In this document: piece by piece, positions 139 through 35,400 of the stretch | Layout: each line of letters opens with the position of its first letter | Position numbering within the stretch: the stretch's first letter is position 1 | Notes under the pieces: generated by a model | Database searches by the model: none | Seen by the model: only the letters and a program-made list of their open reading frames with translations | Told to the model about the DNA's origin: nothing | Made by a program: the position numbers and the translations under genes | From: a virus | Length of the DNA: 38,284 nucleotides | Direction: 5' to 3' (one strand) | Virus record (IMG/VR): IMGVR_UViG_3300007511_000053 | Location: 1 to 38,284 of that record

Positions 139-570
139 TTATTTCATAAAATTTGAGCCGGCGCGGACAACGTCACTGCCTTGTGCTTCTCTAGTGTATT
201 TACCATCCGGTCCGAAGTGATCAGATATCACATCGTTGAAATAAGCTTGGTCGAACTCAGGGTCGACCGGTGTCTCTGGATCGATCATGTATCTTCCGGA
301 ATGAGCATAAGGGCCCTCTGGGTCCCTAACTATATTCAAAACTGCTCCGACGACCTTATTGAAGACTGAGTATTTAGTTAGAATCATTCCGATAATTCCA
401 CTTGCCTTCACAAAGCGAGCCTTAGACTTAAGTGATCCTTTGAGTGCCCTTCTAAAACCTTTGTGTTTTACTGCTTGCCTTGCTAAATCTTGCCAGCTCA
501 TATAGTTCTGTTCGTTAAGTGCATTGTGAACCTCTTCTTTTATAATCTTAATGAGTTCTGACTTTTTCAT
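139..570 (-). CDS. small protein (143 aa) with putative capsid-targeting leader
   Basis: The start at 570 is chosen because it opens with MKKSELIKIIKEEV, nearly identical to the start of the gene at 1240, and because GAGGG lies 8 nt upstream; the in-frame ATG at 624 lies inside the preceding 56-aa gene. The leader ends at L18-N19-E20, followed by Q21, matching the (L/I)-x-E recognition of T4 prohead protease gp21. Residues about 22-60 are strongly basic, then comes a hydrophobic stretch (ASGIIGMILTKYSVFNKVVG) that could be a membrane-active or buried amphipathic helix, then an acidic Pro/Asp-rich tail. No family is recognised. A role as a packaged internal head protein is inferred from the leader alone. 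Its start is 1 nt after the stop of the upstream gene. Confidence 0.8.
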   Translation of the reverse strand: MKKSELIKIIKEEVHNALNEQNYMSWQDLARQAVKHKGFRRALKGSLKSKARFVKASGIIGMILTKYSVFNKVVGAVLNIVRDPEGPYAHSGRYMIDPETPVDPEFDQAYFNDVISDHFGPDGKYTREAQGSDVVRAGSNFMK

Positions 571-571
571 A

Positions 572-742
572 TTAAACCCTCTTGAGTCCGAGTTCTTCCA
601 GTTGCTTTGGTGTAAGCTTTTCAAGAATAATAGCGAATGCTTTCTTTTCAGCTTCTGTTATCATATTAAGATCGCCAGTGTCTGCAAGGTGTTGCATTTC
701 CTCTGCGATGATTTCTTTTAGTCTTCTTTTTGTAAGTTCCAT
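572..742 (-). CDS. very small protein (56 aa) with capsid-targeting-like leader
   Basis: ATG at 742-740 opens 56 codons to TAA at 574-572. A strong Shine-Dalgarno AAAGGAG (756-750) lies 7 nt upstream. The protein begins MELTKRRLKEIIAEEM, the same helix-like pattern of Lys/Arg, Leu, Ile-Ile and Glu-Glu as the leaders of both flanking genes. I28-T29-E30 followed by A31 fits the gp21-type cleavage pattern. If cut there, a 26-residue peptide rich in Lys, Leu and Glu remains. The stop lies one base before the ATG of the next gene (TAATATG), so the two are probably coupled. The leader, the ribosome site and the tight packing together make this a real gene despite its length. The function is unknown. 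Confidence 0.8.
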   Translation of the reverse strand: MELTKRRLKEIIAEEMQHLADTGDLNMITEAEKKAFAIILEKLTPKQLEELGLKRV

Positions 743-749
743 TATTTTG

Positions 750-756
750 CTCCTTT
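750..756 (-). promoter_or_regulatory. strong Shine-Dalgarno site of the 56-aa gene
   Basis: AAAGGAG on the minus strand, 7 nt before the ATG at 742. It is the best single argument that the 56-aa frame is translated, since the gene is too short to be convincing by length alone. Confidence 0.75.
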
Positions 757-757
757 G

Positions 758-1240
758 TTAATTTCCAGTTGTGAGGAAGAGATTACCGTTTGGGCCTTTT
801 ACAAGCCTCGTCGACAATGACATACCTTTTTCCTTGAGGTGTTTTCTAAGAATATCTCCAAGCACTGTTGCAGCTCGGTGTGCGCCTGCTAACTTAGGCG
901 TTCCTGTATCTATAGCCGGCTGACCGTTGAAATCAATTATTCTTGGTGCCTGCTCAAATATATTTGATGACTCTTCTTTTATTGATAAGTTTTGAGCAAG
1001 TTGTTCTTCTGGGTATTTCTTCTTTATGTATGCTACCAACTTTGCGTATCCGTCAGGCATTGACTTGGCTTTGGCTACATGTTGTCTAACTCTCCTCATC
1101 GTGAGTTGTCCTGCATTTCCGCCGGATGCGTTCATCCTTATTTTGTAATAAACCTTCGTGAGTTCATCCCAGTTTTCTTGTTCGAACAGTAAGTTCGAAG
1201 TTTCTTCTTTTATTATCTTAATAAGTTGTGATTTTTTCAT
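758..1240 (-). CDS. small protein (160 aa) with leader and two candidate cleavage sites
   Basis: The start at 1240 is chosen because it gives MKKSQLIKIIKEET, matching the neighbouring leader, and AGGAG lies 7 nt upstream; the in-frame ATG at 1303 would lie inside the primase gene. The leader ends L18-F19-E20 followed by Q21. A second copy of the leader end, IKEESSNIFEQ, occurs at residues 87-97 with I94-F95-E96 followed by Q97, so the protein could be cut into a basic 76-residue middle piece and a 64-residue C-terminal piece. The middle contains a Lys/Arg-rich helix-like region (about 48-76). The C-terminal piece has alternating helix and turn segments and no recognised fold. Head packaging and processing are inferred, by analogy with T4 internal proteins. 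Confidence 0.8.
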   Translation of the reverse strand: MKKSQLIKIIKEETSNLLFEQENWDELTKVYYKIRMNASGGNAGQLTMRRVRQHVAKAKSMPDGYAKLVAYIKKKYPEEQLAQNLSIKEESSNIFEQAPRIIDFNGQPAIDTGTPKLAGAHRAATVLGDILRKHLKEKGMSLSTRLVKGPNGNLFLTTGN

Positions 1241-1250
1241 TATTGTGCTC

Positions 1251-2168
1251 CTAAAAATCAAGTTTGTAATGTAAATAGTCCAAATCGGATACAATATCCG
1301 CATTTAATTTTCTCTGCTCTACCACCTCTTGTGGCATCTCTCCGATGTCTGAATAGCCGCTGACATCAATAGACATAACTTTAATACCATATTCTCTTAA
1401 TTTCTTTGCTATCCCGAATTCTTTTCCCTTGACATCTTCGTCTAGCGCCAAGTACACATCCGGCTTGCGTTCACATATCTTTTGGAACAGCCTTGAGTTC
1501 TCTCGCAAGGTCGACCCAAGCAGTGGCACAGCATTCTTGCACTTCATTGCGTCGAACACACCCTCGGCTAAAATCACGTCATCATCCCAGTCGATGTTTA
1601 GATCGTTAAAGATAATGTCTTTACTAACTCTTGGATTCTTATATTTCATCCAGTCACCTGTATATGACCTAGCCACAAAGAAGTTAACATTTCCATCATC
1701 GTCAAAGCTTGGGATGATAACCCTGTCCTGATACTCTCCATAATCACAGAAGCCAATCTTCCAAGTTAGTATGTCTCTATCTGTAAATCCGCGAGCATAA
1801 AGATATTTAAGGGCGCGGCTCTTTAGCCTCGTCTTCTTTCCTGTTAGTGTTTGGAAGTTTTCTGGTAAGTCGATTATTTGTGGTGGTTCTGGTACGTGCT
1901 CTGCAAAGATAGTGTCATACTTTGTAAGGTCGACTTCGCCAGCCAAGCTGCGCCAGTCTGCATAGTAAGCTGGTGCATATCTGCGGATAAGTGGAGATAT
2001 CTTTGTGCCAGAGTAGTCACATATCCAACACTTGAATACGCCTTTCTCTATGTTAACTGATAGTTTTAGTTTGTGGTGGTTGCATTTTGGGCAGCTGAAT
2101 TGATGCTCGTCGTCGTTAGACCAGCAATGGCCGAGGGCTTTCTTAAGTAATTTGAGCTTCTCTGACAA
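1251..2168 (-). CDS. DNA primase (T4 gp61/DnaG type, 305 aa)
   Basis: Makes RNA primers for lagging-strand synthesis, normally together with a replicative helicase. An N-terminal zinc-binding motif is visible with C26/C29 and C47/C50. The central part around residues 147-180 (DRVIIPSFDDDGN, then an ARSY and a KYKNP segment) is typical of phage DnaG-like primases. The TOPRIM fold follows, with AEGVFDA carrying E202 and D206 and LDEDVKG carrying D243 and D245 as metal ligands. Length is close to T4 gp61. The start is TTG, supported by GGGAG 6 nt upstream and by the lack of any ATG before the zinc motif. The start overlaps the resolvase gene by 26 nt. No helicase gene is in the window. Confidence 0.88.
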   Translation of the reverse strand: MSEKLKLLKKALGHCWSNDDEHQFSCPKCNHHKLKLSVNIEKGVFKCWICDYSGTKISPLIRRYAPAYYADWRSLAGEVDLTKYDTIFAEHVPEPPQIIDLPENFQTLTGKKTRLKSRALKYLYARGFTDRDILTWKIGFCDYGEYQDRVIIPSFDDDGNVNFFVARSYTGDWMKYKNPRVSKDIIFNDLNIDWDDDVILAEGVFDAMKCKNAVPLLGSTLRENSRLFQKICERKPDVYLALDEDVKGKEFGIAKKLREYGIKVMSIDVSGYSDIGEMPQEVVEQRKLNADIVSDLDYLHYKLDF

Positions 2169-13275: not shown

Positions 13276-16200
13276 CTACGTCTTCTTCTTAAAGTCTGTT
13301 TTCGCCCTGACTTTAATTAGTTCAACTATAGAAAAGTAGTCGTAAGGCCAGTTATAAGAAGTTTCTTTCAACTTGTCTTCAAACTCTGTGTTTTTAGGCG
13401 AATAAGAAGAGTCTAACAATTTGCCCCCCGCCTTATTTAGTGTCAAGCTTTGCTCCTTCACGCTCTCCAGTGAGTAGTTGGCTCGTTGCTTAACCTTAAA
13501 CACTAGCCACCTGACGTGATTATCCAAGAAATTATCCAGTCCACCTTCGACGAATGGTACATTATTAGCAGAATCTAAGAAGATCGAAGAATATTTCGTA
13601 TCGATCTTTAAATTCTCTAGTCGCTCATTGTCTAAAATTCCATAACTGTATCTAGCTTGTGCTCCGGACCCCTTAGAGGCCGGCATTACATTCTGCCATA
13701 TGTTCGCAAGATCTTGCTTGTCCAAACTACCGTTGAACTGAAAGACAAAAGCCAAAGGTACAGGAGGCAGGGGTGGCAACTTTGAGTATCTAGGCAAATC
13801 GAATCGCGGTGGGAAAACAAATTTCTCCATCATCCTCAACTGGAACGCTACAGATTCCACAGGGTTGTTACCAGGATTGTTAAAATAGCTTTCATACTGT
13901 TCGTCGCGGGGTTGACGATCGAGATTCCTATTTAATTCAATTGCATCTAGATGATACTCCTCTTTTATATCTAAGAACCTTTGAACGCCTGCATCGAGAT
14001 AGAATGGTATCGCAACAACAGCTTCTGAAAATTGAAAAGACTCTTGCCTCAATTTGCCGGCTTGCTTGACAATACTCGCATTCTGGTTGCCGTAAAAATT
14101 AACCTTCCTTGCGAGACTCGGCGCGCCTTGAATATCAGATATAGACAAGTAGTATCCCTTTCTTGAATCTTCATAGTCTCCTGATTGGTGCCACATACCA
14201 CGAGATGACGTCAAGTATGAAGCCGAACTAGTGACTATTGCGTCTTTAAAGTAATAATCTCTCTGATTTCTCTCTTTCCAATATGAAGAAGTGACTTGCT
14301 CAGTGGTGCTGGTTCCTAGATTTATTACACTTGCTGTGGCGTTGGTGAAATCCATTACAGGAGTCTGCCATTTTGCTTGAATTACCCAACGCTTTGCCGC
14401 GTCGCGGTCATCTCGGGTACCTGACTCCACATCTGATTCGTATATAGAATAGGAGTTCAAATCTAATGAAGCGCTCAAATTCATCGCATTTGTAAAGTTT
14501 GTGCTTCCAGAATTATTTAGATCAGTTGTTGCGACAAGTGGCGAAGAACTTAAATTTGTATATTCGTACTGTAGGTTTTCTACTATTTCGTCAAGTGAAT
14601 ATTCCTTGGAACCACCAGTGTCATCGCTTGGACGAAAAGTAACATCTACATAAGGCCGGGTGCCCTTGTCCAAAAACGGAGGAACGTACGGCAAGTATCC
14701 ATGGCCGGCTCTTACAGTCTCTGACGTTCTCTGTATTCTGGTTGCACCAGAGACAGCATCCGCGCCGCCTGTAAATTCTGCGGCAGATGTATTTGACGCG
14801 TCGAAAGTGTTCGTACCAAAAGGCCCTGATGGATCCGCGTATCCAATGTTTCCGTAAAACTTATTTGTAGAACCAGCACTGTTAAGGTGAGCCACCGTAG
14901 TGTTGTATTGATCCCCTCCAACCTCTTGCAAGATGTGTATTTTGTATCTGCTCAGTCCAATATATGAATCATAATAGGTGTATTTAAATACCTGAATATC
15001 AAGACCAGCAGCGTTGGCCGCTACTAGCTCGTCGTATGTGTCATCCCGAAGTTGTTGTATTGTCCTTCCATTGACATTTATATATCGGTTAACGGTTTCA
15101 TCCGCGGAACTTGCATTGAAAGTGTTGTAGTTGTCGCTAGTAAAGGACAGCGAACCAAGAGCAGAGACACTATTGTAGTATCTTATGTTTATAGTCTTTG
15201 TAAAGTGACTTGTGTTTCCACCTAGGCTCGTAATAATCGAAAAACCTGGGAGTGTCCCTGCCGTGGCTGCTGTTGGAGAAGAGTAACCGTTAGGGTTAAA
15301 CTCAAGTGAAACAGAAGCAACCTGAGCATCTGTGTCGTATGAGACCTCTTGGAGCTTTGCAAAACTCAAATCCCCCTCATCTACTGGTGGACCAAAAGCT
15401 GAATGTCTATCATACATCATGACATCTCTATTTTGTAACATTATTCTCATCTTGTAATCTGTATCTTTTTGAAAGAAAGCCTTTGACGGGGCAGTTGCCT
15501 CAAACGTGACTAGTCCATCGTCGTTGAAGATATTTGTAACTTCAGCGCAGAAGTTGTTTACCGCCATTCGATATGGTAGCATAGTCCTGTTTAAGTTGTC
15601 CGACTCCTGTACATCAACTCCGAGAAGTTCGGATGTTCGCTCGCGATTTAAGGACCCAAAGACAAAAGGACGATCAACGGCAGCCTCCCAGAAATGGTTT
15701 CCATAAGCTAAACTAGCAGAGGGATGCGGCTCGTTATCATAAATCAAGACACCCTCTAACCTGGCGGGATCCAACATTTCTTCAAAAGTAACTCTGTGCG
15801 AAACTGAACCAGTTAATCTGGGTATTCCACTGTCTGAGTTTAGGTGGAAAAAAGATCCTGTTACTCCGGCGGATGATGTGACGGGGTCTGCCTTATCGAA
15901 CGTGACATGCGATTGCTTGTATGGGCCCGACCCAGTAATTGGAGAACCAAAAAACCCAATTAGGCCCGCGGGGTTGTCGGCACTAAAAGACCCAGTCATA
16001 TCACCGTGATCTCTTTCGAAGATAGGATAATCCACTGCCATACCAGACTTTATGGAATTTAATAATACCCCAGGGGAAAAGAGCGATTTTATAGATTGTT
16101 GCAAGTTTGCTCTCTTCTTAGAATCAAGTACAGCGAGTCGGTTATCAAAATCACTACCGTTGAACGCCGTAGAATTTGCAGTCAACACCCCATCCACGTT

Positions 16201-19200
16201 GCTCAAATATTTATTAGAAAAGACTCTACCAATCTGGAGTACTCTTTCCGCGGGGTAAAAACCCTCGTATGGAACAAATTTTATTGCCGCGTCGCATCGT
16301 AAAGTAAGGCGCATGGGCGAAAGGTCATCATTACTATTGCCCTTAACTAATTTAAAATGTTGCAAGATGTCACTGGTTGAATATTCCTGGAACACGGTCT
16401 CGTTGTTTCTTTCTCTTCTCGTATCTAGACGAGAACCTGTAAGTGTTAAAAATTGTTCTTTGCTACCATCTTTTCCAATATCAGCAAAGAGGCCATTACT
16501 ATCCAAGACCGGCTCTATAAAGTCACTCATTCTAAATTCTGAAACTATCGAATAATCCTTTGATATTGCCCTTATTTCCTGAATGTTTTCTCCATGAGAA
16601 TCCGTATATGGGTAAGACCCTATCTGTTCCGCAGCGAGCCATTGTGCCTGTCCCGCTAAGTGCACTGCTGTCTGTGAGGAGTTTGCTTGCAAAACTCTTC
16701 GGTTATATGTCATTGCCGGCGGGGCAGTGATATATGTAGGGTCAATACCCATTGCAAAAGTTCCGTATTCATTTTGAAGCTCGCCAGAGCCATCTGAGCC
16801 AAGTGGCGCTACTGCGCGCGTATCTGTAAAATATGAAACTCCAATATTTCGCGGTGCGGTACCGCCCTCAAACGCGTTAGATGCATCAAGGGGCCAGGAT
16901 GAGGCCTGAATATTAACAACCGAAGGGTCAGTTAGGCTCGTATATTTGCCGTCTATTCCCATGGAGTTTGTCTTACCGTCTTGTAGGACAGATTTATTTA
17001 CCTGCTTCGGGAACAAATAATAACCAAACATAGTGTCTGGCTCCTCGATCGTAACTGATCCCGTAAGAGAAACAGCTCTATTGTTTCTCTCACTATTCCA
17101 AGGATGAGAAAAATCCAGTCGGGCGCGTGTGCCTGCCAGAAATTCCCTTTTAGCAGGTGGATACAGGGTCTCAACAAAAGACACCTGCAATTGTCTTCCA
17201 TACTCTTGTTTAATCTTTTTAACCAAAGAAACGAACTGATGATTTCCTTCCAAATCACCATAGAGCCGGGGGAGCATTCGACCAGAATTTTGTCTCTCGA
17301 TATCAATACCAAGGCTAGTACCAATTCCGCTAGTATTCGAAAACCTATTGAAGAAATCAACGTCGTTTTGATATGTGGTTTTAACCGTAGCTATCGGTGT
17401 GTCCGATCCTATGGAAAGATCAGATGCTCTGAACTCGAATGGCACAACTTCAGACGCCCAGAAAGATTCAGCATCAACTTGTGTTTCTGACGAGATTCCT
17501 AACTCTAGCGGATTGAAAAATCTCCCCTCGCTATTAGGATTTGGGCCGCGGCCTATAATACTAATTCTTGCATTGCGGAACTGGCTGGCTCTATTTTGTG
17601 TAACTATAGACCCGTTCGAAAGAAAGTTAATCACGGCTGGATTCAACTTGTTAGTGATCGGTGCAATAACATGTGATCTGAACTCGCTCTGACCAATGGC
17701 GTGGCGATCTCTTTGTGCTTCGTTCACTGACTTATACAGAGAGGGTGTGTAATCAAAATTATATCCCTGTCCGGCTTGCAGCGGCTTGGGGAAATTGGCA
17801 CTAGGTGGCATGAATTTTCCTGCCATAGAATAAGTGTTGTTCTTTCTCTGATTTCTAGCCAATGGGTGGTCTGCGACTCTAAGCTGGTTCCAAGAGGACC
17901 AGTAGTAGTGCGGAAGCGCATCAGTGAATGTATCATTTCTCTTATAAGAAGCGCTGACGTCTTGTGCAAAGAAAGTCTTTATTGGTATAGACGTCGACCC
18001 AGAGACAGTTGAATAGATTTGAGCCTCGTAGAGAGCTTCAGTGCCAACAACCGGTGAGTGTTCTTCAATCGTCGCGGGGGATGCCAGCGGATAGCTTCCC
18101 GAAAATATCCAGTAGTGATGTATCTTACTGTAGAAAGATAGTTGATCCAGGTCCTTGTCATATGACGTGTTGAAGCTTGTGCTCGAACCGGCACCTTGAA
18201 CAATCGACAATGTATTGGCCTTCGAGTCTACTTCGATCTCTCTACTTATCTTCTCGAAGGTACCCTCTCTTAATCTGTATGTCTGTGCTGCATATTCATT
18301 AAACTCTTTAGCTTCTGAGTCGGAGATAGATCCGGATATCACCATGAAATCATAGAGATCAACGTCTCCGATGCCGACTGTGCTCAGAGGTTCGCCAATA
18401 CGGACTGTTTGAGCACCAGACCCGGTTGGTAATTCTGATGGTGATCCATTCGATGAGACAGTTACGTTATCTGGAGATACTTGACTTCCATCTTGCCAGG
18501 CTGTAATTCTGTCTGCCGTTGCCTCATCTCCCTTATAATAAATAACAAAGTTGTGCCAAGAACTAGACAACAGAGTGATAGGAACTGTATAGCGAGTGTC
18601 ATCCAAGTTACCACCATTTCCGTTGCTTGTTCTAAGTACCAAATAATCCTGATCTACTGTTTCTGAAAGGTTATCTGTCAAGATCTCAACATCAATATAG
18701 TTGCTACCAATTGAGAATATGCCGGCGCCGGGGTATCTTAGGTTCTCGGCGCGCAGATTGAACGCAAAGCCAAACGAACTGTCAGAACCATCTGTGCTTC
18801 CATTATCAAAGTTAAATAAAGTAGTTGCACTAGATGTCAACTTTGACGGAACGGATGCTGACAATACAGATTCTCCAGTCTGCTTGATTCGTAGGCAACT
18901 ATCATCCTTCAGACTTTGCTCTATTCTGTGTAGTCGGAAAGGACTATCATGAGATAATTTCAAGGCGTTCTCGCCTGCCAAGCTGGAACTGTTATTGAAA
19001 CTGTGAGTGTAGGAGAATCCATCGTTATTGTACAAGAATTGATCGAGTGACCCAGATGAATTATTTCTAATCCACGAATACCCAAAGTCATTTTGAGGTA
19101 TCGTAAAAGTCTGAAACGCATTATCAAACTTGGACGTAGTTGAAAAGAACGATTCGTCCGTTGTAATTGACGATTGAACCATGTCGGATCCCAGTGAACA

Positions 19201-22200
19201 CTCTACAATCTGAGGTGCGAATGAGTCGTTGCTGGGTTCAAAGTTTATATTTGCTGTGTTTCCTCCGACATAGTCGAAAAGTTTTCTAGTAGTATCTAAG
19301 TCATCACCCATCTTGTACCATGCAACAACATCACTATACTTAGAATGTTTAGTCACATCCATAACTTTCCCATCGTTATACAACTCGATAACCTGCTGGT
19401 GAGTAAGTTGTTGGCCGGCTGCATGCTTAAAGATCGTTACATCTGCCATCTTGCCGTCAAAATTCAAATCACCGCGAGTTGATAAAATTGAGCCCAAATA
19501 CACCCCAGCATCCTGGTTGGCCATACCAGTATATGAACCTCCTGATGAATCTGAGAAGCTGGTTATTTTTCTCTTATTGACATATATGTTTATCCCAGAT
19601 GCTGCCTCGTTTCCAGAATATGTTACAACTACATGATACCACCTGTCTGGTTCCTTAACTACATCAAACTGCGTAGTCCTTGTTATACTGTTTCCAGCAC
19701 TAGTCTTGAATAAGGTCACTGTAATCTTTTGAGCGTTCAGGTAAACATAGTATTCGGGTTCCGAAGCTAAAGTTGTCTTATAGAACTTGGCAATCATATA
19801 TTTTGCCGTAGTCAGTTCCGATGGGTTAACCCAAAATGAAAAAGTAAACCCCTTATCGTTTCCTGAGCCGTCTGTAAAAGAGAAGTCGTCACTGTCGCTA
19901 GCTATCACGTAATCAGAGTTATTAAAGTCAAGAGCTTTAGAGTTTAGAGGAACCAATTTGTTGGACATGATACTTGACAGTGTTTTTCTCGTGTTTCTAT
20001 TTGTCTTGTGTACTGAGCCTTGCGTTGTGGATCCGGACCTGTATCCGAACTGATCAGATTGTTCCGCCAGTAATTTATTGTTCACACCTCTCACTAGACT
20101 GTTTCTGTAATTTAGTGTGTTGTAAACGGATAATTCTCCAGACTCTCTATCCATACCAAATGCAGTCATCGATTCAGGAGAACCTGGTGCGGAGAAGCGA
20201 CTCACAAAGACATGATCACTTGCAGACGAGGACTGTTTGGTAAAATCAACGACGCCAGATATGTATGTAGACTGAATATCCTCTATTAAAGCCTCTCCAT
20301 GGTTAGCTAAAGCTCTATTATTGGTTTCACGGCCGTGTGCTTGTACGATCTGATAATCCTTCTGGTAGTTCCCCAGAATTTTAGAGCCTGTATTATCCTT
20401 TATATTTCTAACCACATAAGGTGTAGATACTCCTGTCGATCTTCTCAATTGTGATTTTGGAGTGGAGGTATCTACGACTGACATCGTCAAAGCGTTTGTG
20501 TTATAACTTATACTATACGCTTCTGGTCTTTCAGTGGTCTTTGTCCATTCTACGGCCTGATGAGGCATCAATCCTTCGTGCTGGTGTGAAAAAGGACCCT
20601 GCAACACAGACCGGTCAATTGTGGATATGTCAGTGACCTCTATATTGGACCTGAAATTTGGAAGGTCACTCACAGTTGAGCTAGACAGAAAATTGAAAGG
20701 CAAGGTGTGTTTAGAGTCGAAAAGCTCTCCGCCAAAAGAGACCGTTGTGTCAAACTCATGCTTCCTTGTGTTTGTTATTGTATCTTCGTCCAGGCAACCA
20801 TCCCTCTCTCTGATCAGGTCTGCCGAGTTTACCACAATGTCTCTCTCTTCGTTTATTGATTTATAAAACTCATCAGAAATATCTCTCTGGACTAAAATCT
20901 GTTGACTATCTATTCCAAGCTTATAGGGTTTAACCAGGGCCCTTCTTGCATAAGTCGACCCAGACACCTCTGTCGTAACTACCCTCCTCAATGCACTTGA
21001 CTTCTGAACTATTAAAGTACTCTGTGGGAGATAGGGAGAGTCAAGTTCTAAGTTAGCCGTCCCGGCTGCAGAAGAGGCCCCATGTAATGAACCAAGATTG
21101 TCCAACACACGATTGGCACCGTCAGAATAATATGAACCTGTTAGTGGATTATATGTACTGTTCGACAACGGCCAGTACGCAAGCATCTTATCTTCAGTAT
21201 CAAGACTGCCATCAGACTTTAAGAGTGGCAGTGTACTGCCTGAGATCAACAGGCTCATATAATCAACACGGAGTGGCGTTCCAGTGTTAGTGTCTACCTT
21301 CCTAAAAAATCCGATGTTCGTCTGTTTATTCGTAAACTTCTCTGCCTCCAGGGAAGATCCATTTACAGCGTAAACCAGATCCACCATCCTTAACTTGCCC
21401 TTCATTATAATAAGGTCTTCGTCGGTATCATCGTAGGCAGCGTGCGCGCCGTCACCCTGGATTATACCCAGATAAGTACCGTTCTCTTCTTTAGTGTCAA
21501 ACGATGTTACGATCACTCCATCAATATATGCTATTAGCGCGTTCTCTGAAAACTTTGTGCCGTCGTGCTTTTGTTCATGTATCAAGACGTGATGCCATTG
21601 ACCCTGCGTAAATGCGGAGTTCTTTTGTATCGTCAGATTGTTTGAAGATTTACCAAACCGAACAAATAGATGTCCACCAGTTAGGGCTTTTATCGTAAAC
21701 TCGTCATCCTTTTCCACCAAGATATTGTCTATAGAAGTGTCATCTACCTTTACATAGAATGACCATATCACGCCTCTTGGTTTAGCAAAATAATTACCAC
21801 CAAACGTAAAATCAGTGTAGGGCGTAAATAAGGCATTATCACCAAAAGAAACAAAGTTGGTCGCGGCTGATATTCTCAATGTTTCCACATTGTTAGGTTG
21901 GGTTTTAAGTACGTCGTCTAATTCCCTTCTTTCCTGATTCCACACACAATTTGAGTTCTCTGTGTTTCTTAACGGAGCGTGGCCCAACCTCCAATTATAA
22001 TCTAATTCATTTATGCCGAAGATTGAGTGTGTGTCCTCGTTAGCTTTGAATTCTATCGTAGGAGCAGGGTGTTGATATTTGTTTCTCTCCAGGATGTGAC
22101 TCTCTACAGTGTTTCTTAGTTTATCAGTAACGTTTGCAGAAGCAGGCATGAGCTGAGTCAGAGCCTTTGACAGTGAACTGTCTATCCACCTATAGTATTC

Positions 22201-25200
22201 AACAAATTTATCCAAATCAATCGTATTCTGAACTCGACTGAAAAACCTTTCTCTCAGGGTATTTAATGACTTGTATTCATGACGATACTTGTTTACGGTT
22301 GCACCGATAAGAGTGTTGTATCCCGAAATTCCCGCGAAGAAGTCTAGGGCGCGTTCGGATATTATCTGGTACATACTCTTTTCGAAGATGAATTTCTTCA
22401 CCACAGGTTTTGAAGATGCAGTGAATCTTTCAACTTCAGAGTCTACTATATCAACCGCGGTGGATGTGTGTCGGTTGCCCATGGGTGTAATCTTAACAAA
22501 AGGCATAAATTCTTGACTTATCGTGCCCGAGATGTTTCCAAAATTCACCCCAAGTGCGGGATACTTATATCCAACAATTGTTCCCATGGTAGCATCAGAT
22601 ACTTTCCCTGCAGAACCAGAAGATAAATCTTCCACACTGATTTGTCCTGATGGGTTTGACGAAGTCAGATTCTCAAACTGCCACCGAAAAACAAGCGAGT
22701 CTGCAGCAGTTAGATTCTGGCCGCTGTCCTCTTTGATTATTTCAAACGGATTTTTCCTACCAAAATAACTTGAGTTTTGAGCATGCACCTGCAATTCTTC
22801 ATCTGTTAATCTATCCAGCCACATGGCGGCGCCTAGACTCTTTACATTTGACCTATTAAGAATAGAGCCCACAAGATTAGCTCTCTCTGCCCCAAGGTAT
22901 GCGTACTTGTTAGAACTATTGAAAGAATCATAATTTGCCTTAGATATACTAGAGGACACCGAAAAGGATGACTGTTGAATATCTAAATCATAATTGTAAC
23001 CGGTAAATTCAACCTTATACGAATCTGATGCAGAGACAGGTAGAATATTATTATCCAAGTCTTGATCCTTGGATACTCTCACTGACAAGTGCCAGTGCTC
23101 ATCATCATATACATTTGCATATGTGCTCGACGTGACCTCTGTAAAAAGCCCTTGTGAACTTGTCAAAAGAAAATAAGCATGCTTCTCAGCTGATTGCGGG
23201 CGTACTGAAAAAACTTGGAAATTGTCTGACAACCCGAACAATGATGCTTGACGAATATCGGGGTCCAAGTTTTTACTTGGGGCTATGATGTTGCTTTCTA
23301 GAGTGTATGCACATGGAATGTGAGAGCCAGTGATGTGACCAAGCGCATCTCCAGTTGCTGATGACGTCAGGTACAATGTTGCACCAGTATTTAGCGGTTC
23401 TGAAAAGTCCAGACTTTTCTGTTTAACTGTCTCAAAACTCACGTCATTTAAGATCGTTCTTGACTCGTTCTCAGTGTAGACGTTAAACTTAATTAAATCT
23501 GTATCAACTCCGAAACATCTCATCATGTTCCTGAAGGAATTTTCCGTTCCCTTAGTGTTATAAATGTGTGTCAGGTTTTTATGTATGTTTGATAGTATTG
23601 TGTTTTTAACTTCTCCAAGTTTGTAGTCAAAATTCTTTACATCTGATGCCTGGTTGAAAATTTCGTACATTTCTGCGTTGTCAAAAATATCAGGAACCAA
23701 AAATCCGTAGTGCTGCAGAGTGTCAGATATCCACGGTTTCGTCTTAGAACCGGCAGTTTTAAAATCCTCGTCAGTATCGCAACCAAAAAAGAAACTGTCT
23801 ACCGATAGATTTCGAGTTTTTGTTCGCGATGAGAACAGATCTTTATCTTGGTACTCCTTCATTCTCGGTAGGAACATTATCTTCAGAAAAATATCGTCTA
23901 ATGCGCTAGCTAATATTTGCAAAAGCTCCGGTAATAAATCTTGGTCTTGGTCTCTCATAAATTGAGGTATACTGTTGACAAGTGAGTTATTGTTTGCAGA
24001 GTCGTAATTTGATCCTATTTCGACGAATTCTTGCCTCTTTGTTTCTACACTTGGACTCGCAGGTATAACTATGGGGTCTGCAGGTTCAACATAATCGCTT
24101 TGTGGCAAGTTCTCGGATAAGTCAATACCAGAACGAGAATCTCTACAATCAGACTTGTAGTTCACTATTGTTCCGTTATTAACTCTGCCGGAATAGTCTA
24201 GAACCACTTTGTCTTCCCTATCTTCGCCTGTGGTACCCTCATTAAATTTAAAATACAATCCAAGATCTGCGTTAGAGTGATCCAGGTCGGTGCCGCCATT
24301 AACAGGTCTGTACCAGTTTCTACCTATTTCCTTTGCTGTTCTTTCTTTCTTCCAATATCGCACCTCGTCAATCGAGGCCCTAAGGGCGCCTGTAACATTT
24401 ATGGCTGAAAGATCTTCAGAGCAAAGTGCACCAATAGAGCCAGTAATTGGTCGATCTACTGATCCGATAGCCTCGTTGTGCGAAGTGGTAGAATCAAGAG
24501 TTCCGTCTTTGTATAGTTTGATTTGAGTCGTGGATCCGCTGGTGACTGCAGAGATGGCGTAATGGTGCCATTTACTATCCGCAGTGGTTGCTTTCGTGAT
24601 GTTCGATGACCCAATTCTAAGGGAGTCTGCACCCGTGGCGTTACCAGACATATAGGTGAATAAGAATGGACTTTGAGAGTCAGACGCAGGATTTTCAATC
24701 TCTATCTTAATTCTACCAAAATCAGTTGCCGCGGTTGAAAACTTTGACGTCGTCGCGTCGAAAACGACCTCTCTTAATCCTTCTTTATAAAAAGAGGTTG
24801 AACTTTTCTTAAGCCAAAATTCTATCGTGTTTCCTTTTGTACCATCTATCTTTAAATTACTTTCCCTGTTTAAGGAAGGGTTAAAGATTGTGTTTTCATG
24901 CGGACCACCAGAAAAAGTTACATATGTTGCGTTTCGTGTGACTCCATAATTTGACACATTATGGGCGTGATCTAGATTTGTCAATTTCAAAAAGCCTTTG
25001 CTTTTTGGATATTCATGTTCAAAAATATACAAATCGATTACAGAAGAACTTAGAGACCACTCTATCTTTTCGGCGCGGGAGCCGTCATACGGATAAGTCT
25101 CTAGGATTCGGTCAAAACTGTCTTCATAGTATTTTTTAGCGCTTCCATACTGACAGAAAGTTTCTGGATTTCTGTGATCTATGGGAGGTATGTATCTGGC

Positions 25201-25362
25201 TTGTTGTTCTTTGTATGCTAACAGAAATCTATCGGACTCGATACCTGGTGGTAACGCGTTAGAGCCCGAAAAGGGGACGCCATTCTGTTGATGTTTATCA
25301 TTATAATAAGATGAGAGACTCACCGTCCCTCTACTTTTAAATATATCTCTATAATCTGTCAT
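13276..25362 (-). CDS. giant baseplate protein (4028 aa) with LamG-like domains and a gpI/gp7-like segment
   Basis: Probable baseplate wedge protein with surface-binding domains. LamG/concanavalin-like sandwiches are suggested at about residues 144-400, 650-895, 1175-1412, 1805-2042 and 2176-2360. They show the recurrent pattern of an early FW or FY strand (IEFWLKK, FSFWVNP), a W-H-x motif (KWHHYAIS, QWHHVLIH, RWYHVVVTY, SWHNFVIYY) and a late IDEVRYW/MADVTIF strand. Residues about 455-620 resemble the Tail_P2_I/T4 gp7 core: QDLLPELLQILASALDDIF, then HIYNTKGTENSFRNMMRCF. Residues 2400-4028 are beta-rich without a known name, ending with a PPLPPVPLAF and DLANIWQNVMP segment near 3870. The gene overlaps the 619-aa gene by ATGA and follows gp6, the place of gpI after gpJ in P2. 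LamG folds often bind glycans; host attachment is inferred. Confidence 0.8.
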   Translation of the reverse strand: MTDYRDIFKSRGTVSLSSYYNDKHQQNGVPFSGSNALPPGIESDRFLLAYKEQQARYIPPIDHRNPETFCQYGSAKKYYEDSFDRILETYPYDGSRAEKIEWSLSSSVIDLYIFEHEYPKSKGFLKLTNLDHAHNVSNYGVTRNATYVTFSGGPHENTIFNPSLNRESNLKIDGTKGNTIEFWLKKSSTSFYKEGLREVVFDATTSKFSTAATDFGRIKIEIENPASDSQSPFLFTYMSGNATGADSLRIGSSNITKATTADSKWHHYAISAVTSGSTTQIKLYKDGTLDSTTSHNEAIGSVDRPITGSIGALCSEDLSAINVTGALRASIDEVRYWKKERTAKEIGRNWYRPVNGGTDLDHSNADLGLYFKFNEGTTGEDREDKVVLDYSGRVNNGTIVNYKSDCRDSRSGIDLSENLPQSDYVEPADPIVIPASPSVETKRQEFVEIGSNYDSANNNSLVNSIPQFMRDQDQDLLPELLQILASALDDIFLKIMFLPRMKEYQDKDLFSSRTKTRNLSVDSFFFGCDTDEDFKTAGSKTKPWISDTLQHYGFLVPDIFDNAEMYEIFNQASDVKNFDYKLGEVKNTILSNIHKNLTHIYNTKGTENSFRNMMRCFGVDTDLIKFNVYTENESRTILNDVSFETVKQKSLDFSEPLNTGATLYLTSSATGDALGHITGSHIPCAYTLESNIIAPSKNLDPDIRQASLFGLSDNFQVFSVRPQSAEKHAYFLLTSSQGLFTEVTSSTYANVYDDEHWHLSVRVSKDQDLDNNILPVSASDSYKVEFTGYNYDLDIQQSSFSVSSSISKANYDSFNSSNKYAYLGAERANLVGSILNRSNVKSLGAAMWLDRLTDEELQVHAQNSSYFGRKNPFEIIKEDSGQNLTAADSLVFRWQFENLTSSNPSGQISVEDLSSGSAGKVSDATMGTIVGYKYPALGVNFGNISGTISQEFMPFVKITPMGNRHTSTAVDIVDSEVERFTASSKPVVKKFIFEKSMYQIISERALDFFAGISGYNTLIGATVNKYRHEYKSLNTLRERFFSRVQNTIDLDKFVEYYRWIDSSLSKALTQLMPASANVTDKLRNTVESHILERNKYQHPAPTIEFKANEDTHSIFGINELDYNWRLGHAPLRNTENSNCVWNQERRELDDVLKTQPNNVETLRISAATNFVSFGDNALFTPYTDFTFGGNYFAKPRGVIWSFYVKVDDTSIDNILVEKDDEFTIKALTGGHLFVRFGKSSNNLTIQKNSAFTQGQWHHVLIHEQKHDGTKFSENALIAYIDGVIVTSFDTKEENGTYLGIIQGDGAHAAYDDTDEDLIIMKGKLRMVDLVYAVNGSSLEAEKFTNKQTNIGFFRKVDTNTGTPLRVDYMSLLISGSTLPLLKSDGSLDTEDKMLAYWPLSNSTYNPLTGSYYSDGANRVLDNLGSLHGASSAAGTANLELDSPYLPQSTLIVQKSSALRRVVTTEVSGSTYARRALVKPYKLGIDSQQILVQRDISDEFYKSINEERDIVVNSADLIRERDGCLDEDTITNTRKHEFDTTVSFGGELFDSKHTLPFNFLSSSTVSDLPNFRSNIEVTDISTIDRSVLQGPFSHQHEGLMPHQAVEWTKTTERPEAYSISYNTNALTMSVVDTSTPKSQLRRSTGVSTPYVVRNIKDNTGSKILGNYQKDYQIVQAHGRETNNRALANHGEALIEDIQSTYISGVVDFTKQSSSASDHVFVSRFSAPGSPESMTAFGMDRESGELSVYNTLNYRNSLVRGVNNKLLAEQSDQFGYRSGSTTQGSVHKTNRNTRKTLSSIMSNKLVPLNSKALDFNNSDYVIASDSDDFSFTDGSGNDKGFTFSFWVNPSELTTAKYMIAKFYKTTLASEPEYYVYLNAQKITVTLFKTSAGNSITRTTQFDVVKEPDRWYHVVVTYSGNEAASGINIYVNKRKITSFSDSSGGSYTGMANQDAGVYLGSILSTRGDLNFDGKMADVTIFKHAAGQQLTHQQVIELYNDGKVMDVTKHSKYSDVVAWYKMGDDLDTTRKLFDYVGGNTANINFEPSNDSFAPQIVECSLGSDMVQSSITTDESFFSTTSKFDNAFQTFTIPQNDFGYSWIRNNSSGSLDQFLYNNDGFSYTHSFNNSSSLAGENALKLSHDSPFRLHRIEQSLKDDSCLRIKQTGESVLSASVPSKLTSSATTLFNFDNGSTDGSDSSFGFAFNLRAENLRYPGAGIFSIGSNYIDVEILTDNLSETVDQDYLVLRTSNGNGGNLDDTRYTVPITLLSSSWHNFVIYYKGDEATADRITAWQDGSQVSPDNVTVSSNGSPSELPTGSGAQTVRIGEPLSTVGIGDVDLYDFMVISGSISDSEAKEFNEYAAQTYRLREGTFEKISREIEVDSKANTLSIVQGAGSSTSFNTSYDKDLDQLSFYSKIHHYWIFSGSYPLASPATIEEHSPVVGTEALYEAQIYSTVSGSTSIPIKTFFAQDVSASYKRNDTFTDALPHYYWSSWNQLRVADHPLARNQRKNNTYSMAGKFMPPSANFPKPLQAGQGYNFDYTPSLYKSVNEAQRDRHAIGQSEFRSHVIAPITNKLNPAVINFLSNGSIVTQNRASQFRNARISIIGRGPNPNSEGRFFNPLELGISSETQVDAESFWASEVVPFEFRASDLSIGSDTPIATVKTTYQNDVDFFNRFSNTSGIGTSLGIDIERQNSGRMLPRLYGDLEGNHQFVSLVKKIKQEYGRQLQVSFVETLYPPAKREFLAGTRARLDFSHPWNSERNNRAVSLTGSVTIEEPDTMFGYYLFPKQVNKSVLQDGKTNSMGIDGKYTSLTDPSVVNIQASSWPLDASNAFEGGTAPRNIGVSYFTDTRAVAPLGSDGSGELQNEYGTFAMGIDPTYITAPPAMTYNRRVLQANSSQTAVHLAGQAQWLAAEQIGSYPYTDSHGENIQEIRAISKDYSIVSEFRMSDFIEPVLDSNGLFADIGKDGSKEQFLTLTGSRLDTRRERNNETVFQEYSTSDILQHFKLVKGNSNDDLSPMRLTLRCDAAIKFVPYEGFYPAERVLQIGRVFSNKYLSNVDGVLTANSTAFNGSDFDNRLAVLDSKKRANLQQSIKSLFSPGVLLNSIKSGMAVDYPIFERDHGDMTGSFSADNPAGLIGFFGSPITGSGPYKQSHVTFDKADPVTSSAGVTGSFFHLNSDSGIPRLTGSVSHRVTFEEMLDPARLEGVLIYDNEPHPSASLAYGNHFWEAAVDRPFVFGSLNRERTSELLGVDVQESDNLNRTMLPYRMAVNNFCAEVTNIFNDDGLVTFEATAPSKAFFQKDTDYKMRIMLQNRDVMMYDRHSAFGPPVDEGDLSFAKLQEVSYDTDAQVASVSLEFNPNGYSSPTAATAGTLPGFSIITSLGGNTSHFTKTINIRYYNSVSALGSLSFTSDNYNTFNASSADETVNRYINVNGRTIQQLRDDTYDELVAANAAGLDIQVFKYTYYDSYIGLSRYKIHILQEVGGDQYNTTVAHLNSAGSTNKFYGNIGYADPSGPFGTNTFDASNTSAAEFTGGADAVSGATRIQRTSETVRAGHGYLPYVPPFLDKGTRPYVDVTFRPSDDTGGSKEYSLDEIVENLQYEYTNLSSSPLVATTDLNNSGSTNFTNAMNLSASLDLNSYSIYESDVESGTRDDRDAAKRWVIQAKWQTPVMDFTNATASVINLGTSTTEQVTSSYWKERNQRDYYFKDAIVTSSASYLTSSRGMWHQSGDYEDSRKGYYLSISDIQGAPSLARKVNFYGNQNASIVKQAGKLRQESFQFSEAVVAIPFYLDAGVQRFLDIKEEYHLDAIELNRNLDRQPRDEQYESYFNNPGNNPVESVAFQLRMMEKFVFPPRFDLPRYSKLPPLPPVPLAFVFQFNGSLDKQDLANIWQNVMPASKGSGAQARYSYGILDNERLENLKIDTKYSSIFLDSANNVPFVEGGLDNFLDNHVRWLVFKVKQRANYSLESVKEQSLTLNKAGGKLLDSSYSPKNTEFEDKLKETSYNWPYDYFSIVELIKVRAKTDFKKKT

Positions 25363-29484: not shown

Positions 29485-32400
29485 TCAACATTCTTCTAGA
29501 TCATCTTTTGTCTTGGCTTGATTTGTTGTATCGTTCAACACTTGACATTTAAATCTCTGATCCTTCACGTCCCTTCTCATAACTGGTGTCGACAACGCTA
29601 ATAACGTAATTGGAGTAATCGGGTGGCCATATCGCCCATGAAGGCCCAGCTCGAATTTGTCCCAGTTAAATGCACTATCGCCTTCCCTACCTGGTTCAAT
29701 ACAAGGTATCTGGAATGCATAACTTGGATCCAATAGTGGTAGCGGTCCAGAATATATATATGTCACTAGTTTATCCAAAGAGGCCGCAATTGTTCGAAGG
29801 CCGAACTCAATATCACGAGGCGTTGGGAACGGTTGAATTAAACTTCCAACTCCAACGACTAAGTCGACGGGAAAAGTCGGAAAAACACCAGCATAAGTGC
29901 TACTCCCATCTCTACCTCTACCACCCCTAAGACCAAGAGGGACATTCCTGTCTCCCGTGTAAGCTGTCAACACCTGTCCTCTTCCATCTCTCTTTTTACC
30001 AACAAATGAGAATCCGTCCATGTGGCAACTATTCCAGTGATGTTTTATCTCTTTATATGCGGGATCGATTTGCTCCGCGATGCCCCTGAGAATCATTGAC
30101 GGGATAAACTTAATAAACTCCTCTAACATGTCCTGTAGCATTTTTGCCCACTGTCCAAAATCGACCGGGAAAAGATCACAGTCTTCTTTATCGCCCGGTG
30201 CAGCGTTTTTAGCAGTTAAATCAAATATATCCGATCCATCGAGCGTACCGATTCCGAGATCTTGTAAAGTAGTGTCTTCAAACTTGGCACCTGAGCGCTT
30301 TGAAGCTTGGTAAAACATCGTCCCTAGCATATTTTTAGCAGAGGCAAAGAGCAGGGGAAAAGTATTATATGCGCCTAATAAAGATGTATTATATATGGCA
30401 GCAGTAGAGACCATCCTCTCCAGAGGAAACAGATAATCAAAATATATTTGAAATCTTTCTTCTTCTTGCAGACGATTCAATCTGTACTGAGACTGGTCTC
30501 GGAACCGGGTTATCAACTGAGGGATATTAGTTGTGTTCCAACAAGGATCTGACAAGTCAATTTCCTCTTCAAAGTTTGCCAAAAAGTAAGTTTCTAAGTT
30601 GCGGCCGTCTATGGTGCGGACGTCTCCCAAGCGCTGCTCCTCTAGTGCAATGTCAAGCGATGGCGAGGATCCGCGGTGAACTGACAGTCCTAGCGAGGCG
30701 TCGGATTCGTCTGGGATTGCCAAGACCATTCTAACTCCTTGCGATATCTTCGAATTAAAGAAATACCTATCAAAAATAAAATCTGCAGAAAAACTGTCAT
30801 CTGTCAATGTCCTATTCATTGATCTCCACAGCTCCGCAATGCCTACCTCTTCCAGTGCGCGGTGATAATGGGATTCAAGGGTTGCGGAAAATTGATTTGC
30901 CGCGATCATTCGCGAAAATATTGCCGCCATCCTATCTATTTGTCTAGTTGAATTTGCGACTGTTAACGCGAACATTATCATTGACTCTTGCGAAGACACG
31001 TCATATATGTCCTCGGCATCTCGGAAAAAGCTTCTGTGAAACAAAGGTGAAGAGTCTGGACCTAACCCCAGGGCAACAAGATTATGCATCGGACTGTCCG
31101 GCATCTCGCGAGATTCTCCATTAGCTATTGCGTACCTGGACATTCTTGAAAAACTCTCCACATCTCTCTGTTGCAGTGGCTGGCTGATTGTAAAATTCAA
31201 CTTTTCTTCCATATCTCTTTCCACTGCCTCCAGGTCGATCCTAGAAAAAACACCAACATTCCGAAGCATGTAAGTGCGCGAAAGACGACCCGCAGAAAGC
31301 GCCAACCATGTATTAATAAAGTCGTCAACCTCTTCTCTTTTTTGATCCTGCAATGATATTACTCGTTGAAGGTCTCCAGTATCTACTGGTCGTGGGTCCG
31401 CCATCATTTGCAAATTAGCAAACAAAGATGATAACACCAAGGAGAATTCGTCTACACTGGTTCTACCGTCAGCATAGAAGGGAGAAGTAGAACATATTAT
31501 ATCCGGAGTCTCTACCCTTGGATTATATTGAGAGTTTGAGATGCGAGACGTATATGTCCTACCCCAAAGAGAATCTTCGCGTCTCTGGTTAAACCAACCA
31601 AGCAAACTGTTTATAGTCTCGGTAAACTCTGCGAAGTTTGTTTCCCTTAGTCTCTCCAATCCGTTAAAATAAAGAGATCCAGCATATCCCTCGCCCTTCA
31701 GTGTCTTTAAGAGTATTCCCCTATTATTGACAAATTGATTAATTGTTTCCGTGTTCGAAAAAATACTATCTTCTCTTGCTATGTCTTTGTCACAGACTTT
31801 TTTAAGTAATTTTTCTTTGCTGAAAAAACTAGGTCGCCTGTCGCTACTGCTGAAAGAGTAACTATTCCCCCGAGAGTATCGATATCTGTCATAAAAAACT
31901 GGGAATGATGAAATATTATTTTTGACATATCTGTAACACTCTACGATGTTTGCTCTTGATATCTCAGGAGCGTTTTGAAGTACTTCTAACATTTCTGGAA
32001 TATTACTCTGATAGCGACGGATCGACCGCGTCCAAGCCCTCAAGGTGTTGAGGATTCCTTCAAAATAAGTTTCAACTATTTCATTCCACGCGTCGAAAAC
32101 CAGTTGGGTGTTGCGGCTGTTAGATTGATCTTCAAGGCACTCCGGTATTATAAAATTTACATAACATTCGGATGCAGTAGAATCCGTGAAGCCGAATACA
32201 TTATACCTTGTCAACAAAATTCTGGTTGGTATCTTATAATCATTGTCATAAAGAATAGGATCTGGCCCCAACATTTGAAGTGTTACACTGTCTGTGCCGA
32301 AAACGTCCGGTTGTGAATGCCTGGGCAATTCAATTGAACCGTCGCCAACGATCGTGTGCACAAAGCTGTCTTTCGCGTAAGACCTGAAAGCTTCCTCTCC

Positions 32401-35400
32401 AGTTCGTTCGGAGGTCGTGTACGGTGCTTCCTGTCGTGAATGCACAAAACCAAATCTACCTTCGACAAAACACCCAGTATCACCACCAAAACGAAACGGC
32501 AACCTGCTAGCTGAATCGACGTTTGGGTCATCAACTCTCATTATTTCTTGTAACTGAGTCATTTTCTCCCTGTAGTCTGATGGTATTTCTAGCCTGCTTG
32601 TTGACCAGTCTGCATCAGTATAACCAAATTTAATTTCACCAATTTGGTTGAATATCGGTGATTCTTCCCCTATAAAATCCAACACCTCTTGTTCTACTTT
32701 AACTTTCAATCCATCTGGGTATGAATCAAATGTCGTTTTATCTGTTCTGCCATATGTTGGCTCAATGAATTTTAAGTCGCCGTCTTGTAATATTCTTTCT
32801 GGATATGTGGAAGGTAAATCACCTGACTTATCTAGCAACAACCTTCTTGTAACACCGCGTGGTCGCCCGCGGGATTCAATCAAGTTTAATCCAAACTCAT
32901 CCTTACTCATCGATCTTACAAAGGCGTTATCTTTTGTGTAATCGTCAAACGCGTTTGCAGAGAAGGGTCTGGGCTTATTTTGCTCATTGAGTTGATCGTC
33001 CAAGAATGTCGTACCATCGACGAAAGTAGAGTAGTGTCTTAGTCCATCGTTTGTTAGTTGACTTGTAGATCCTATGCTGTAGGTCGTCGTGACAAGTGGA
33101 AGCCCTGAGTCGTCGGAAGCGATGTCTGTGTGTTTGTGCATCTGTCGCTTATTAGTTTTTATTTCATAAGCAGCAGAAGGTGTTCTTTTTAGGAAAGTTG
33201 GTCGTCCGGAGAGGTTGCCTTCTTGAAATAAGCGCTTGATGTCCCTCTCCGCTCTCTGGGATTCCCCGTCATCTCCTCCAGTAACAATATCGATTAATTT
33301 TTGAAAGTCTTCAATTGAAATTATTTCCACGTCTTCTGAACTGTCATTCAAAAAACTAACATTGCTTGAATTTATATCGTTGGTATAATTTGACAAATAG
33401 CTAATATTTGGCGGTTCCAGGTTCAACCTGTCATATACACCAGGTGCAATTGCGGTAAATTGTTCGGTGGCGCGTCTGAAGCTGACCGGCGTGCTAAAAG
33501 TATCTGGATTTGCAAGTGGGCCATTTATTTTTACGTAATTCTCGAAATAAATAGAAGGATTTATACTGGGCATTTCCAACTGTGGATCCACAACCCACTT
33601 GTTTTGTACCTTGTCCGAAGGTATATTTAAATTTTGAAGATTATTGATATAAAAATCGTAAAGATTTCCGCCCGGCTTCTTGTTGAAGATCCTATCTATA
33701 ATCCCTGCTATTGAAAAGATCTCTTGATTTATAATGGTTTTTATTGCCTTGCGGGGGTCCGAGCTTCCAGTAATCTTTTTCAAGGATTCTGAAAACTTGT
33801 ATTTTACATCTTCCCTCTGCAAAGTCGGAAGTTCCATTATATTTTTAATGCAAATCTCTTCTAGATATGATCTGAAACTTTCTGATGATATCATATCTGT
33901 GAAAGAAAAGACCGAATTATTTATCGACGATTTTAATGCCACTTCCAAAATAGTTAAACGAACCAAACCCTTCACTACAAGGTTTGACATAGCTTTCTCC
34001 ACTGGTGTCAACTCGGCGTAGTCCGTGACAGAGACGTCGTTCTCTGGTCTTGCATATTCCTTCATGATTTCTTCCACGAAATCTTTCGCTATCAACTTAT
34101 CAAAACCTAAATCTGAATCTGAGTTCAATTCATATTTGTTCTTAACACAAGGTATTGAGGATCCCTCTTTCGGTTCTAGATACAGCTCACCTGCTACCAG
34201 GCGAGTAATTCTCTCTACATACTCCTCTGTGAAAATAGAAGAATCGTAAAACTCAAAGAACAACTGTTCAAACAAGCCTTCCAAAACAGAGTCATAAACA
34301 ACTCCTTGCAATTTGGACATTTGAGAATTCAAAAATCCAGTAAGGCCCTCAGCATCAAGTTCCGCTTCTGAGACTCTGTATCCATTCAAAAAACTGTCTC
34401 TAAATATTGTAAAAAAGTTTCTATTCTTAGCTATCGACATGTTCAGATCGTCAGCATACAGGTCGGGTATTCTCTTGCAATATTGTATACTAAGGTCACT
34501 ACTGTCATCAATCACTGGACCATCAGTTGTTTGGATCACTCTTCTTGTCTGAATTTTGTACTTGTCGAATCCAGGCGGAGAGGGTAGATTCACCATTTTT
34601 GTTTCGATACCAGAAGCCGAGTCTGATATCACAAGTTCAGTCTCGTCCGAGTCCGTAGCTGCAGATATCAATTCGTTCGTGCCGCCTTCCCTGATCGCCT
34701 CCGCGTTTGAATCAAATATTTGTTTTAAATTTTTTAACAATTCTGAGTTTATAGAAGTAGAAACTGCTTTTTGCAAATTATTCACAACATCTTGCTGGAC
34801 TGATTCAAGTAATTGGTTGATTTTATTTACGATTCCTATTTTTAAAGATCTGGTTTGAATTTCATCCAACTCCCCAAGTTCATCCCTAGTTCCTTGACTA
34901 TCTATTTGAACGATGTCTCCTGGTAACACTCTGGATAATGATATGGGAAATTTTTGCTGCTCGTTCGGACCTGCTTTTACCAGAGTCACCTCGAATTCGA
35001 CTGGTTCAGAGTTATTAATTGACTGATAAGTTCTAAGTTGGCGATTCAATTCTTCTTGTGTTGTATAATCCGCTGTTCTAATATCATTCGACCCCTTGAA
35101 TATCCTATACTGCTTGACGTGCACACTCATCTCCGGGTCGAAGGTGGACCCCCTGGTTTCAAATGTCTGACACATATCATCTAGCAACCTCTCCAAATCC
35201 GGGAGGTCGCGAGATGGAAGGGATACACTGGGGTTCTCCGATATGAAATTAGAGTAAAACCTGAGCTTTTCAGTTGCTGCCTCTAATGTTAACTTTGCCT
35301 TGAAGTCGAAATTTGGATCCCCGGGTTGAGAGATTTCATCACTTTCCATGAAGAAATGATTCCCAAAACCACGTAAAGAAGACAGATAAGACATTTTGAC

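Follow-up and report, generated by a model that had tools for sequence, protein, structure and literature searches.

Three small neighbouring genes of an uncultured marine phage begin with a shared leader, which is very probably a cleavable capsid-targeting sequence (CTS), similar to that of the T4 internal proteins in its working and unlike it in its sequence. Moreover, it is likely that this one modular tag, distinct from that of T4, loads many unrelated and rapidly swapping proteins, some of them as polyproteins cut into two cargos, in much of the uncultured T4-type phages. The open-access literature searched yielded no account of this leader.

The leader cassette and its predicted cleavage sites

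The window, i.e., the whole stretch of DNA analysed, is an uncultured marine phage fragment of 38,284 bases from IMG/VR, in which tail and baseplate genes dominate, mostly on the minus strand. It holds giant tail-region ORFs of 4,028 aa (13276-25362) and at least 2,932 aa (29485-38283, open at the window edge). At its left end, a primase is followed by the small minus-strand genes C, B and A, which are consecutive and co-directional (arrows mark predicted cuts):

1251-2168, minus strand: DNA primase (phrog_47, E 6e-42), the upstream flank of the cassette
758-1240, minus strand: gene C, 160 aa, with a leader; probably a polyprotein of two cargos
1181-1240, minus strand: first 20 residues of gene C, its leader MKKSQLIKIIKEETSNLLFE, with cleavage predicted behind E20, LFE↓Q
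953-982, minus strand: internal leader half of gene C, IKEESSNIFE↓Q at residues 87-96, with a second cleavage predicted behind E96
572-742, minus strand: gene B, 56 aa, leader-bearing, kept in place in relatives; predicted mature peptide of 26 aa
653-742, minus strand: first 30 residues of gene B, comprising leader and pro-region, MELTKRRLKEIIAEEMQHLADTGDLNMITE; predicted cut ITE↓A (28-30)
139-570, minus strand: gene A, 143 aa, leader-bearing cargo, with an 84% identical homolog in L002
511-570, minus strand: first 20 residues of gene A, its leader MKKSELIKIIKEEVHNALNE, with cleavage predicted behind E20, LNE↓Q

The first-pass annotation had described three adjacent genes with a common N-terminal leader and otherwise dissimilar products, as well as gp21-type sites at residue 20 of A and C and at ITE↓A in B. 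Both descriptions are borne out: the three ORFs are confirmed, BLASTP shows no relationship between the mature parts of A and C (E = 9.6), and the residues right after the predicted cuts are QNYM in A, AEKK in B and QENW in C. AlphaFold models of A (mean pLDDT 57.8) and C (56.2), both of low confidence, place a helix at residues 3-20. The start codon ATG is preceded by GGAGC in B and C, and by AGAGGG in A. The likeness of the three leaders is far beyond chance: a loose leader regex recovers 39 of 2,379 ORFs in the window lineage, where the genomes are related and the ORF counts hence not independent, versus 1 of 3,408 in tRNA-bearing control IMG/VR loci. Direct searches yielded a single relative of gene A, in L002, and none of gene C. 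The Pfam, PHROGs and PDB matches of A and C were at chance level, and ATR13 and ornithine acetyltransferase were rejected as candidates.

In gene B, the site equivalent to the leader end (residues 19-21) is LAE in 13 of 17 relatives and LAD in the window, whereas residues 28-30 keep [IL]TE followed by A or S, or VSE followed by S, in all 17. Since the 28-30 site is invariably kept while the other varies, A31, which had been put forward from the letters alone, is the better call for the mature start. In T4, aspartate at P1 stops processing and leaves targeting intact (PMC9026906), and this fits gene B, with LAD in the window and ITE↓A retained.

A second kind of site lies within the genes. The A homolog of L002 (L002:930-1595; 222 aa) runs on beyond the stop of the window gene, and its extension consists of FIKEEIRNILPE, a cut before Q, and then a second cargo. 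In gene C, IKEESSNIFE↓Q occupies residues 87-97. When each sequence was shuffled 20,000 times, the leader-half profile score was equalled by no shuffle of the L002 protein and by one of C, so that both look like two cargos joined via a cleavable leader remnant. Such internal leader halves are rare elsewhere, with one more case in 303 ORFs among the matches listed. The cassette of L002 includes an extra ORF (L002:1743-2429), by eye a homing endonuclease of the GIY-YIG/NUMOD type.

A search with the window primase returned 25 relatives from IMG/VR. In 13 of these and the window, the cassette lies between the primase and, in records that extend far enough, an SbcC-like gene, and in these 14 records it comprises a constant gene B plus zero to two variable leader genes. 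The mature parts of the leader-bearing neighbours of B mostly differ from genome to genome; the stretch after the primase is thus a slot where cargo swaps around a constant gene B.

Head genes of the relatives and spread of the leader

The first-pass annotation had made its reading depend on a gp21-like protease, which only the relatives could show: the 38 kb window stops short of the head region and gave no S77 match. An S77 (gp21-type) prohead protease is present in 17 of 26 primase-relative records, namely those that span the head cluster, and from these relatives the window phage probably has one too. The head genes of the relatives (S77, a leader-bearing prohead-region protein and a gp23-type capsid protein) lie about 10 kb beyond the cassette. 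In G003, whose primase is 94% identical to that of the window, the order is terminase, portal, S77 (78426-79064), a 138-aa leader protein, an acidic scaffold-like protein and a 593-aa capsid protein. The gene of the 138-aa protein (G003:79061-79477) overlaps the end of the S77 gene; the protein starts with MKKSELKNIIKECVKEILFE, followed by EGVLSN, and its site is LFE↓E. A leader protein overlapping or just behind S77 is conserved in 14 relatives, with LF[ED] at residues 18-20, and tblastn found no homolog of it in cultured phages. It may be a prohead-core or scaffold partner for leader docking. In a 292 kb phage (G027, L383), several leader genes crowd around the S77 gene. The capsid protein matches Pfam Gp23 (E 8e-72), and all 14 aligned N-termini carry LLRE↓A or LLRE↓T ahead of the conserved domain, at the expected end of a pro-domain. 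This is comparable to T4 gp23, which is cut at SFLTE↓AEIGG.

The distribution of the leader was assessed with two degenerate DNA patterns (KKS and KIT), which cover the first 13 or 15 codons only. Run on IMG/VR, each found at least 120 stretches, and together they amount to at least 303 distinct leader ORFs. Removal of redundancy from the matches listed left 116 and 146 proteins (262 in all). Among these 262, information content remains high as far as the E at EE+7 and falls to background from the next residues. The motif [LIVMF]xE occurs at EE+5 to +8 in 69% and 68% of the two sets; the corresponding figures are 6-7% for windows further on and 12% for shuffles. Because the search imposed nothing on positions past the pattern, this abrupt end of conservation is an independent result. 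Among the matches listed, the strict [LI]xE is found in 66% (KKS) and 54% (KIT). About a third of the leader proteins do not have [LIVMF]xE at the exact site, and some of them have one a few residues on; anywhere in EE+4 to +18, it is present in 91% of the KKS and 78% of the KIT matches listed. The majority consensus of 148 leaders is MKITKSxLKQIIKEExxxxLxE, with almost nothing beyond it. In 84,980 bacterial and archaeal species genomes, the KKS pattern occurs in only 4 stretches, which belong to two metagenome-assembled genomes; one match (L528) sits on a contig of an assembly labelled Candidatus Nitrosopelagicus and is probably binned phage DNA.

The company of T4-type head genes was examined in 35 leader-bearing contigs of at least 97 kb, taken from the matches listed, and in 15 control contigs of the same size range, in which a looser leader pattern found nothing. 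S77 is present in 29 of the 35 and gp23 in 27, and all 27 gp23 carriers also have S77; the 6 contigs without S77 are also without gp23, as fragments would be. In the controls, S77 occurs in 8 of 15, and the same 8 have gp23. The enrichment of S77 (29/35 versus 8/15) is modest (Fisher p = 0.04), and as S77 is common in large phages, its co-occurrence alone is weak support, the joint pattern of S77 and gp23 being the better one.

Most cargo matches no known family. The exceptions are leucine-rich repeats, an EF-hand and FliG_C, a LysM domain (G025, near 183.8 kb, minus strand) and a thioredoxin-like protein with WCPPC (G006, near 89.5 kb, minus strand), which falls just below the Pfam cut-off. 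Basic, lysine-rich cargo is found in G010 (7.4-8.2 kb) and G023 (0.15-0.7 kb), G003 has basic proteins as well, and mature A and C are mildly basic; some cargo, by contrast, is glycine-rich and hydrophobic. Past its leader, the G003 protein matches hypothetical proteins of cyanophages in its mature domain. Known anti-defence proteins were matched by none of the cargo (PADLOC was outside the search).

A proposed route into the head and its alternatives

During head assembly, the amphipathic helix of the leader would dock the tagged protein onto the prohead core, and the S77 gp21-type protease would then cut after the terminal (L/I)xE, so that the mature protein would already be free inside the head by the time DNA packaging starts. 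The genome would be accompanied by mature A (123 aa), the 26-aa peptide of B, and mature C with one cut or two, which would give pieces of 76 and 64 aa; upon infection, these would probably pass into the host. The swapping of cargo beside a constant B is as expected for host-specific takeover or counter-defence proteins. That the leader proteins are packaged and cleaved, as initially proposed, is strongly suggested by genomics and well supported by it: S77 in 17 of 26 records, a leader protein beside S77, LRE↓A or LRE↓T in the capsid protein, and 262 leader proteins. Docking of the leader, injection and the function of the cargo are what we infer, with injection and action on the host drawn from the precedent of T4 (PMC3012670, PMC9391042). 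A role as injected effector or in counter-defence would likewise be a matter of inference, because no cargo has a known anti-defence function.

Many head proteins of T4-type phages remain uncleaved, and some of the leader proteins may likewise keep theirs as a docking helix. As a general account, i.e., a leader that docks proteins into the prohead core or virion yet stays on, with LxE merely the end of the helix, this is unlikely. The helix does stop at the site in both low-confidence models, roughly one leader in three departs from an exact LxE, and an amphipathic pattern alone would account for the conservation of the first 15 residues. However, L or I at P3 and E at P1 are both enriched while P2 is free, which is the specificity of the gp21 protease, and conservation stops at the very next residue. 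Moreover, the internal copies in polyproteins retain IKEE-x-LxE↓Q, and gene B preserves its [IL]TE or VSE before A or S throughout, though the LAE at the end of the helix varies.

There is only a slight chance that the leader directs proteins elsewhere, e.g., to the host membrane or a replication compartment, or that it is a regulatory domain. The cassette adjoins replication genes (primase, SbcC-like) outside the head operon, and the hydrophobic, glycine-rich character of some cargo would suit such a target, but the same leader is found on the gene adjoining the prohead protease, every leader-bearing gp23 contig among the matches listed has S77 (27/27), and in T4, too, the internal-protein genes are away from the head operon (ipI is at 73.6-73.9 kb and the head genes are at 101-106 kb). 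A recent duplication or recombination of gene starts at the DNA level, the leader protein itself being functionless, is highly improbable and largely refuted: the genes are adjacent on one strand and in one operon, and leader genes are often in tandem, but between the leaders of A and C, 20 codons show 6 synonymous and 5 non-synonymous changes, the synonymous ones speaking against a recent DNA copy, and the protein pattern is kept over very diverse phages on unrelated bodies.

Phage proteins that are carried in the head and delivered with the DNA act first on the host, yet they diverge too fast for detection by homology. If the leader does target proteins to the capsid, such proteins can be listed by a simple pattern, with at least 303 distinct ORFs across many uncultured phages, and the tag would become a search key for the whole packaged and injected repertoire of these phages. 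Candidate proteins for takeover and counter-defence would then be at hand as a catalogue, and the tag might serve to load chosen proteins into other phage heads.

Comparison with known systems

Primase, baseplate and capsid protein point to two cultured relatives, Flavobacterium phage immuto and Microcystis phage Mel-JY01, besides the uncultured LR756508; when the leader (20-22 aa) was compared with cultured phages by tblastn, LR756508 alone was returned, with a query too short to show absence. In immuto (MW353176), two MKKS-type leader genes, immuto35A_175 and immuto35A_176, lie upstream of the primase, S77 is present and the capsid protein is related. Its leader, however, is more divergent, without a clear LxE at residue 20, and the cargo of the first leader gene is hydrophobic, with no similarity to A or C noted.

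In the giant phages phiKZ and SPN3US, the prohead protease (gp175/gp245) removes propeptides after xE from ejection or inner-body proteins, and several cut sites per propeptide are reported (PMC10052503). The motif of SPN3US is A-x-E, the literature consulted describes no common leader family of this kind for these phages, and the capsid here is of the gp23 type.

The closest parallel is provided by the T4 proteins IPI, IPII, IPIII and Alt, whose CTS is cut by gp21. T4 sets the precedent for the role of the CTS, for the L/I-x-E specificity of gp21 and for unrelated mature parts (PMC9026906, PMC3012670), and residues required for targeting have been described, as have others required for processing (PMC9026906). 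In both systems, a short N-terminal leader closed by (L/I)xE sits on small, otherwise unrelated proteins, the set of cargo genes is swappable, and the phage group has an S77 protease and a gp23-type capsid, here from relatives. Translated T4 IPI starts with MKTFKEFTSTTTPVSTITE, cut before A, a leader of 19 residues and thus close to the 20 found here; its mature form has 76 aa (PMC3012670). The leader sequences differ (MKKSELIKIIKEE... here versus MKTFKEF... in T4): by eye, the T4 leader (MKT.KEF... to ...ITE↓A) agrees with it in no more than the initial MK, an N-terminus that is basic and hydrophobic, and xE↓A. The leader described here is also more strongly conserved, is found on the protein behind the protease gene too, and occurs across many uncultured phages with several tagged genes each, sometimes repeated within one gene. 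Each genomic feature of the T4 internal proteins that was tested is present in this system except the leader sequence, with protease and capsid seen in relatives only. The leader proteins are set apart from the T4 internal protein family, and their functioning would be T4-like.
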